A DNA stretch of 64,000 nt from assembly GCF_023169945.1 (NCBI RefSeq), contig NZ_AP025591.1, positions 5,576,481 through 5,640,480 on the forward strand, given 5' to 3'. The notes under the pieces were generated by a model, which saw only the letters and a list, made by a program, of their open reading frames with translations, was not told the origin of the DNA and searched no databases. Source of the DNA: Anaeromyxobacter oryzae (GTDB lineage Bacteria > Myxococcota > Myxococcia > Myxococcales > Anaeromyxobacteraceae). Positions 9,316 to 10,742 of this stretch are shown piece by piece (position 1 is the first letter of the stretch; each line of letters opens with the position of its first letter). Position numbers and translations under genes: made by a program.

Positions 9316-9432
9316 GGCGCGGGTGACGGGCACGACAAGCCGGCACGTTCACGGGCAGGGGCACGAACCACGTCGGAGTGATGGAGATGTCCTCCCTCTC
9401 CCTCCGCGCAGCGAAGCGAAGCGGGGGGAGAG
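9316..9432. repeat. 266-bp direct duplicate, copy 2, left part
   Basis: It repeats 9050-9166 with a few changes and breaks off after GGGGGGAGAG at 9432, where the insertion element begins. The rest of the copy resumes at 10591. Confidence 0.85.
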
Positions 9433-9447
9433 CAACCGTGTTGAACG

Positions 9448-10398
9448 TCAAGCCGCAACGGTGACTGGCGCGTCCTCCGTCCAGGGCGCGCCGTCGCGCA
9501 TCATCGCGTTCAGGCGAACGAGCAGCTTCCGCATGCAGGCGACGTGGGCGACCTTTGCCGGCTTTCCGGCCGCGAGGAGGCGGTCGTAGAAGGCCCGGAT
9601 CGTCGGACTGCACCGGATCGCGGTGAGCGTGGCCATGTAGAGCGTGTGGCGCACGGCTCCGCGCCCGCCCCAGATCGCGCGCCTTCCGCGGAGTGTGCCG
9701 CTGTCCCGGTTGAATGGCGCGACCCCGACGAGCGCCGAGATCTTGCGACCGTTGAGGCGTCCGAGCTCGGGGACCTGGGCGACGAGGGCGCAGGTGCTCA
9801 CGCGGCCGATCCCGGGCGCAGAGCGCAGGATCTGCTCCTTCACACGCCAGAGCGGACTCTTCTTGATCGAGCCGTACAGGTCGTCGTCGACGTCCTTCAG
9901 GCGCCGGCGCAGCCAGGTGATGTGCTCCTCGATGTCGCCACGAACGACCGGGAGCGCGGTCGCGAGGCGGTTCGACTCCGCAGTGATCATGTCGACGAGC
10001 TGCCGGCGCCGGAGCACGACCGCCTGCAGCGCCTGCGTTTCCTCGTCGGGCATCGGCCGCGGCTCTGGCCTGAGGGCCTCGCCGAACCGCGCGATCACCT
10101 CGGCGTCGAGCACGTCGGTCTTGGCGAGCTGGCCCGTGGCGCGACCGAAGTCCCGCACCTGGCGCGGGTTCACGACCGCCACGGCGATGCCAGCCACCGT
10201 GAGCGCTGCCACGAGCGGCGCCTGGTACCCGCCCGTCGCCTCGACGATCACGAGCTTCGGCTCGAGCGGCTTCAGCCTCTCGACGAGCGTCGCGAAGCCC
10301 GCCTCGTCGTTCGTGACCGCCCACACTTCGCCAGAAGGCCGCACCGCCACGTCGAGCCGCGCCTTCGACACGTCGATGCCGACGAACGCTTCGCCCAT
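9448..10398 (-). CDS. IS110-family DEDD transposase
   Basis: 316 aa from ATG 10398. The N-terminal RuvC-like DEDD domain shows [14 protein letters not shown] (first Asp), IVEATGGYQ (Glu) and [15 protein letters not shown] (two Asp). The C-terminal Transposase_20 domain shows [20 protein letters not shown], then a helix-hairpin region, then [20 protein letters not shown], whose Ser is the likely nucleophile, and [16 protein letters not shown]. The frame stays open to 10587, but that upstream part is Arg/Ser-rich and overlaps the predicted guide RNA, so I start at 10398. The protein looks complete, so the element may be active. Confidence 0.93.
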
Positions 10399-10419
10399 GA
10401 GCACCCGTCCCGGTTGACC

Positions 10420-10580
10420 ACTCCGTCGGCCCGTCCTTGCAGGATTCGAGCTCTTGGCTCTGGCAACCGTTCGGGCTCGGGAGTGAGATGGCTGCACGGC
10501 GATCTCATGCTCTCCCGCGGTGTTCGCCACCAAGGGCCGATCGATCTGCCGTGCAGCCAAGCGGTTTCCCATGACTCTCC
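10420..10580 (-). ncRNA. Predicted bridge RNA of the IS110 element
   Basis: On the transposase strand a perfect 11-bp stem GGCTGCACGGC (10548-10558) pairs with GCCGTGCAGCC (10490-10500). Inside it come CGGCCCT (10533-10539), a small hairpin GGTG-GCGAA-CACC, and GGGAGAG (10510-10516). CGGCCCT equals the left half of the insertion site plus core CT. GGGAGAG is the reverse complement of core plus right half (CTCTCCC). A second stem CGAGC/GCTCG encloses ACGGTTGC (10463-10470), which equals the element's right end up to the first core base. The same stem encloses CAAG, complementary to CTTG at core plus left end. This is the target-loop/donor-loop plan known for IS621. Exact RNA ends are not defined. 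Confidence 0.75.
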
Positions 10581-10590
10581 CCGACATACA

Positions 10591-10742
10591 AGGGCCGGGG
10601 TGAGGGGGGCCGCTCGCGTTTCGCCGACGGACAGGGGCGGTGGCGAGTCAGGGGCACGGGCCACGGGCCACGGGAGGCGGGTCACGGTGAACGGGGACGG
10701 TAACGGCAACGGTAACGGTAACGGCTACGGCTACGGCAACGG
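10591..10742. repeat. 266-bp direct duplicate, copy 2, right part
   Basis: It resumes the block interrupted at 9432: AGGGCCGGGGTGAGG, CTCGCGTTTCGCCGACGGAC and GTCACGGTGAACGGGGACGG follow in the order of copy 1. It ends with a seven-unit hexamer run at 10699-10740 (GGTAAC, GGCAAC and GGCTAC variants). No gene is seen from here to 10872. Confidence 0.85.

Follow-up and report, generated by a model that had tools for sequence, protein, structure and literature searches.

A complete IS110-group insertion sequence in Anaeromyxobacter oryzae whose predicted bridge RNA matches its own insertion site and ends

The 64,000-nucleotide stretch of the Anaeromyxobacter oryzae genome analysed here (the window) carries what is very probably a complete insertion sequence of the IS110 group, with a bridge RNA encoded in its left end and a mode of action like that of IS621. 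At the level of sequence this reading is supported by exact ends, an intact frame, five conserved catalytic positions, a covarying target stem and guides in agreement with the insertion site and the ends of the element. It is a known kind of RNA-guided recombinase, whose bridge RNA was described in 2024, and hence a clean new example and not a new system. Both guide and target are legible in the raw sequence, and the analysis contributes a GC-rich member whose right guide has 7 nt, along with a set of about 30 guides paired with their targets.

The element, its insertion site and its copies in the host genome

A GC-rich block is found twice in the window, and its second copy is split by 1,158 bp. 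A 53-bp stretch at 9114-9166 is directly repeated at 9380-9432, and a 65-bp stretch at 9165-9229 recurs at 10591-10655 (98%). In the unsplit block these two repeats overlap by the dinucleotide AG, so that the insertion point is exact, and the comparison between the empty and the filled site places the boundaries of the element at 9433-10590 on the minus strand. Read on the plus strand the core is AG, and on the recombinase strand it is CT. The filled site on the latter strand is CGGCC-CT-[element]-CT-CTCCC; only the 2-bp core is shared, with no longer target duplication, as characterises the IS110 family. The initial annotation had claimed that the empty site survives in the first copy of the duplicated block and that the target on the transposase strand is CGGCC-CT-CTCCC, and the comparison of the two sites confirms both statements. 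The features concerned are the following.

9433..10590, minus strand: IS110-group element, 1,158 bp, core not counted (exact empty site; 100% identical second copy)
9448..10398, minus strand: recombinase (DEDD transposase), 316 aa (PF01548, PF02371, NF033542, ISCro4 9t56, IS621 8wt6, motif positions)
10591..10592, minus strand: left core dinucleotide CT (empty-site comparison)
9431..9432, minus strand: right core dinucleotide CT (empty-site comparison)
9114..9229, plus strand: both flanks in duplicate, empty site with core AG at 9165-9166 (direct repeat families D4 and D5)

Short tandem runs of GGTAAC-like units, unequal in length, are also present at about 9255-9315 and 10698-10745, one for each copy of the flanking block.

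The recombinase frame is open and uninterrupted over its 316 aa. The protein matches PF01548 (N-terminal DEDD; E 1.9e-29, 102.9 bits against a curated cut-off of 29), PF02371 (C-terminal Tnp_20; E 8.6e-17, 61.7 bits against a curated cut-off of 21.3) and NF033542, the NCBIfam 'IS110 family RNA-guided transposase' (E 6.7e-68, 229.3 over a cut-off of 140). Among solved structures the best relative by sequence is ISCro4 (PDB 9t56, E 1.3e-44), with IS621 at E 2.9e-42 (8wt6). The five catalytic residues of IS621 reported as essential (D11, E60, D102, D105 and S241; PMC11208158) align with the conserved motifs GID, VEAT, KTDVLD and DSG, and point to D9, E53, D95, D98 and S233 as the candidate catalytic residues of the window recombinase, under an assumed offset of 2 between the deposited chain of IS621 and the numbering of the paper. 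The non-coding ends measure 192 bp ahead of the ATG and 15 bp past the stop codon, a long left and a short right end that correspond to the IS110 group and not to the IS1111 group. The complete IS110 element proposed in the initial annotation is borne out by the exact ends, the intact frame and the alignment of the active-site residues with IS621. Among the relatives, an element from Deinococcus (L044, L060) has a right end of about 180 bp, which is long for the IS110 group.

The host assembly consists of one contig of 6.72 Mb (G000). A search for other copies of the element, suggested with the initial annotation, returned a second identical copy and three right-end remnants. The second copy, at G000:C1:3019603-3020760, shows no difference over 1,158 bp and sits at TGGCC-CT-CTCCC, where the right target is identical and the left one is one base off (11 of 12 bases). 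The three remnants are older and consist of the right end only, each running on as CT-CTCCC; they are 93-95% identical over 33-44 bp, the third giving 85% over 46 bp in another comparison. Decay of the element, its bridge RNA being a fossil, would agree with the presence of just two full copies in the genome and with the rarity of the recombinase in the host phylum, in which 2 of 195 genomes, the host included, match at E <= 1e-40. The open frame, the conserved active site and the second copy without a single difference argue against decay, and we consider it unlikely. The identity of the two copies (100%) suggests instead that the complete element is possibly active.

The initial annotation had further proposed that the element is programmed for a GC-rich repeat of the host, and the genome agrees with this: the 12-mer CGGCCCTCTCCC has 59 exact copies against 3 for the reversed control. 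Searched in 7 further genomes of the genus, it has 1-5 copies per genome. Eight fetched examples were inspected by eye, six of them lying in hairpin-forming repeats and two (L008 and L010) not. The 12-mer is patchily expanded in the class of G195, a Competibacteraceae genome, with 60 copies in G070 (control 1), 52 in G065 (control 21) and 40 in G286 (control 0). A conserved target repeat shared across phyla was rejected, the 12-mer being mostly at control level.

A dispersed host repeat of about 440 bp (L003, L004, L005 and L085-L092) is present nearly in full at 8 places, most of them next to palindromes resembling the target, and carries a full target palindrome on its left side where this is readable. 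At three of these 8 places the repeat terminates in an old right end of IS110 type that runs into CT-CTCCC, and we read the right-end remnants beside the repeat as one old fusion which was later copied. Their interpretation as a non-autonomous derivative was rejected, since the neighbour of about 440 bp is a dispersed repeat in which no left end of IS110 type was seen.

The predicted bridge RNA and the guides of related elements

The left non-coding end folds at -87.4 kcal/mol (z -2.93), a value reached by 2 of 200 dinucleotide shuffles. The predicted RNA contains the following features, with a small hairpin between CGGCCCT and GGGAGAG inside the 11-bp stem.

10425..10583, minus strand: predicted bridge RNA, both ends approximate (fold, covariation)
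10490..10558, minus strand: target-binding loop with an 11-bp closing stem, 10548-10558 with 10490-10500 (helix 1 covariation)
10533..10539, minus strand: left target guide CGGCC-CU (own left flank matched 7/7)
10510..10516, minus strand: right target guide GGGAGAG, complement of CT-CTCCC (own right flank matched 7/7 in both copies)
10429..10476, minus strand: donor-binding loop with a 5-bp closing stem, 10472-10476 with 10429-10433 (helix 2, nearly invariant)
10463..10470, minus strand: left donor guide ACGGTTG-C (equals the right end 9433-9439 plus the first core base)
10436..10439, minus strand: right donor guide CAAG (complement of CT-TG at the left end)

This layout is the one drawn in the initial annotation, which had described an 11-bp stem enclosing CGGCCCT, a small hairpin and GGGAGAG, a 5-bp stem enclosing the right end plus the first core base and CAAG, and two target guides of 7 nt with the CT core in common; both stems were recovered, and the two guides match their own flanks in all seven bases.

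The pairing of the stems was analysed in an alignment of 32 sequences (A1), in which L040 and L020 were lengthened by hand and from which L079-L083 were left out. Its consensus fold contains both loops and comprises 18 pairs, two of which (126-166 and 127-165) were left out of the covariation count. Over the 16 counted pairs 95.2% of the cells are paired, compared with 63.9% in shuffles and 35-44% in slid-partner controls, and 0 of 500 shuffles paired as well, although these controls lean towards the structure because the counted structure is the consensus of the same alignment and the shuffles ignore relatedness. The count of compensatory changes is, within this alignment, the stronger part of the evidence for the stems: both sides are changed in 144 cells against 39.8 in the shuffles, and 15 of the 16 pairs show two-sided changes. 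In the target stem (helix 1, 9 of 11 pairs counted) 95.7% of the cells are paired and two-sided changes occur in all nine pairs. The donor stem (helix 2, 3 of 5 pairs counted) is paired in 100% of the cells and nearly invariant, hence it says little. The expectation that the stems covary in related elements consequently holds for the target stem, while the nearly fixed donor stem has little to show on this point.

In order to compare guides with targets, relatives were collected from plasmids, in which 1,125 records matched at E <= 1e-50, all below 60% identity, and 21 regions were taken; more were obtained from further copies in 17 of the plasmid records, from the host phylum and from the class of G195, where 11 of 369 genomes match the recombinase at E <= 1e-60. 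A scan of genome contigs with the single window protein gave only 4 loci. The ends of the elements were set from the terminal motifs CT-T(T)GTA and ACxGTTG-CT plus variants; one or both ends of 19 elements were hand-picked with the flanks in view, and in L020, L050 and L072 one end was set to none by hand. Pairs of loci containing the same element (L001/L002, L044/L060, L052/L062, L056/L064, L061/L068 and L051/L063) fit the set ends, their identity extending only into shared target bases. From 49 tabulated elements, 10 were dropped for having no recognised right end (L015, L016, L020, L045, L046, L050, L065, L067, L072 and L074) and 9 as exact or near repeats of a kept RNA (L002, L059, L060, L062, L063, L064, L068, L069 and L070). 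The remaining 30 include L076 and L077, which have no recognised left end, and the tests of the left target guide and of the donor guides were done with n=28.

On average the right target guide agrees with its own right flank in 4.87 of 5 non-core bases, against 1.53 on the flanks of other elements. The match is perfect in 26 of the 30 elements and reaches at least 4 bases in all of them, with 0 of 100,000 permutations as high; the 30 elements contain 21 distinct right guides, and relatives sharing one guide are not independent. Relatives are in this way found at sites that fit their own loops, as the initial annotation had anticipated. The left target guide (8 bases with the core, n=28) gives 5.89 on its own flanks and 4.04 on those of others, again with 0 of 100,000 permutations, these values being the best of five offsets for own and foreign pairs alike because the MAFFT columns were out of register. 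It is weaker than the right guide, and that of L040 matches in only 4 of 8 bases and fits by eye solely in a wider register. For the left donor guide (n=28) the own match is 6.89 of 7 against a cross match of 5.38, with 25 of 28 perfect, 13% of the foreign pairs perfect and 0 of 100,000 permutations as high. All 28 elements have CAAG as the right donor guide, with a left end of CT-TG in 25 and CT-TT in 3, which is too little variation for covariation to show.

The guide GGGAGAG is common to five relatives in other hosts (L040, L049, L051, L084 and L125), all of them at CT-CTCCC, and AT-rich targets are matched 7/7 by L044 (CTCAAAA), L052 (CTTTAAA) and L077 (CTTTTGC). Since the 21 distinct right guides include AT-rich ones, base composition cannot explain the match between guide and flank. 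This bears on the proposal that the recombinase itself reads a GC-rich hairpin, either in DNA form or as a cruciform, with the RNA-like matches as a by-product of base composition. The target is indeed the arm of a palindrome, and L049, L051, L061, L075 and L076 were also seen by eye at hairpin arms; however, the perfect matches of the relatives with AT-rich targets and the loss of the match when guides and flanks are assigned by shuffling make this explanation highly improbable. Just as hard to credit is a left-end structure whose only role is regulation in the 5' UTR of the transposase mRNA, with no guide, as first described for ISPpu9, whose 5' UTR folds and limits translation until an antisense RNA relieves it (PMC8450116): a plain UTR does not predict loop bases that track the insertion flanks, yet they do, and the two roles can coexist.

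Proposed mechanism and comparison with known systems

With a bridge RNA as the preferred reading, the element is like IS621 in its recombinase with DEDD and Tnp_20 domains and in a left-end RNA with a target loop followed by a donor loop (Durrant et al. 2024, PMC11208160; structural paper PMC11208158), as well as in the CT core, the guide layout and the insertion into palindromic repeats (PMC11208160). By homology to IS621, the element would leave its site as a circle, and the joining of its right and left ends would build a promoter driving the bridge RNA. The first loop of this RNA would pair with CGGCC-CT-CTCCC, one arm of the GC-rich palindromic repeat, and the second with the joined ends of the element, while four recombinase subunits would exchange strands at the CT core. 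A guide aimed at a dispersed palindromic repeat would offer many similar landing sites. Two features may constitute the promoter.

9446..9451, minus strand: candidate -35 box TTGACG, located in the right end and available only to the circle (joined-ends comparison)
10583..10588, minus strand: candidate -10 box TATGTC, located in the left end (joined-ends comparison)

In the joined ends these boxes are separated by a 17-nt spacer and agree with the consensus in 8 of 12 bases, the -10 box in only 3 of 6. Over 28 elements the junction scored better than the integrated left flank in 24 cases, equal in 3 and worse in 1, with mean scores out of 12 of 8.5 for the circle, 6.36 for the integrated form and 6.59 for shuffled right ends. 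A stricter plain promoter scan found no promoter in the integrated DNA. The candidate promoter of the window element agrees with that reported for IS621, which forms at the circle junction (PMC11208160).

The window element differs from IS621 in its targets and in the length of the right target guide, 7 nt as against 4 nt, and longer right guides are reported for some relatives (PMC11208160). A further difference concerns the handshake bases at positions 6-7, which in IS621 pair with the other DNA and are reported to aid strand exchange, cognate pairing there being a hindrance (PMC11208158). The two loops of the window element instead agree with their own DNA at P6-P7, and we count this point against the reading. 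Among the elements of the branch, all 28 left donor guides have the base of their own donor at P6 and 26 of the 28 have it at P7; the left target guide at P6-P7 (n=27) agrees with the target in 56-59% and with the donor in 15-30% of cases, in a register that is partly ambiguous. Because of this ambiguity in the other left guides, a branch-wide absence of the handshake is a lead only. In the window element itself the apparent absence constitutes a testable difference from IS621, which may be useful for choosing recombinases.

The predicted RNA also resembles the seekRNA of IS110 and IS1111 elements, likewise a product of the non-coding region that matches both target strands, the bottom-strand match coming first in the IS110 types (Siddiquee et al. 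2024, PMC11187229). A shorter, processed RNA is reported for those elements. By its description, ISPpu9 of Pseudomonas putida is similar in its palindromic-repeat site, its AG direct repeat and the structured region upstream of tnp (PMC8450116, PMC1525189), and the reported insertions into REP sequences (PMC1525189) fit the taste of the window element for palindromic repeats. For ISPpu9 an antisense RNA to the structured region has been shown experimentally (PMC8450116).

sX15 and antisense RNA

A scan of the element with Rfam gave sX15 (RF02234), a small RNA of Xanthomonadaceae, as the only match at E <= 1, on the plus strand at window positions 10409-10570. This match, to the reverse complement of the window RNA, has 43.6 bits and E 1.6e-5, under the gathering score of 55. 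Rfam was rejected as a source of a model for the bridge RNA, none of its matches in the element reaching the gathering score. In 20 scanned loci sX15 was detected only in the identical copy (L002), the model missing the rest of the branch of the window element. It was found in 1 of 369 genomes of the class of G195 (G207) and in 62 of 297 genomes of the family of G207, 42 of them over the cut-off, with at most 9 places per genome and often with equal scores; the Rfam name suggests that this family is Xanthomonadaceae.

Thirty sX15 loci were analysed (L105-L133 and L074). An IS110 transposase match is present in 22, on the opposite strand in 21 and on the same strand in one (L117), and in 18 of the 21 the inferred transposase start lies about 17-23 nt beyond sX15. 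Among the 8 loci with no transposase match, five are short (1,654-1,908 bases), which suggests contig ends, and three (L118, L130 and L133) are longer. For the guide check the 22 loci were cut to 15 with a near-full transposase match, two of which (L105 and L108) have no recognisable right end. In the other 13 the guide, taken as the best of several candidate 7-mers, matches the flank 7/7 in 8 loci, 6/7 in 4 and 5/7 in 1. sX15 as modelled is therefore the complement of an IS110 bridge RNA, in a layout like that of Asr9 of ISPpu9.

For ISPpu9 an antisense RNA of about 180 nt directed against the tnp 5' UTR, Asr9, is reported, and transposition rose when its amount was increased (PMC8450116). 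In the parts of the literature covered by the search, with preprints and most subscription journals outside it, no paper linking sX15, Asr9 and bridge RNAs was found; sX15 is merely listed in the available text of PMC6337395 and is not mentioned in that of PMC3771888. Tentatively, and with more doubt than confidence, we propose that production of a stable antisense RNA to the full bridge RNA is common in the IS110 group, that sX15 and Asr9 would be examples of such an RNA, and that it may control transposition through the bridge RNA, which it would occupy or refold, and not only through the transposase mRNA. The window element would then be a relative that keeps a shape visible to the sX15 model. 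Should sX15 and Asr9 prove to be antisense bridge RNAs, an sRNA family already annotated would acquire a function, and bridge recombinases would have a regulator in nature.

Many relatives, chiefly in the sX15 group, are inserted in sequences that resemble integron attC sites. CTAAC(A/G)C is found on the left of L114, L116, L119-L122, L124, L126, L128 and L131, GTTAGGC on the right of L114, L116, L120, L124 and L126, and CT-TGTTA in L079-L083.
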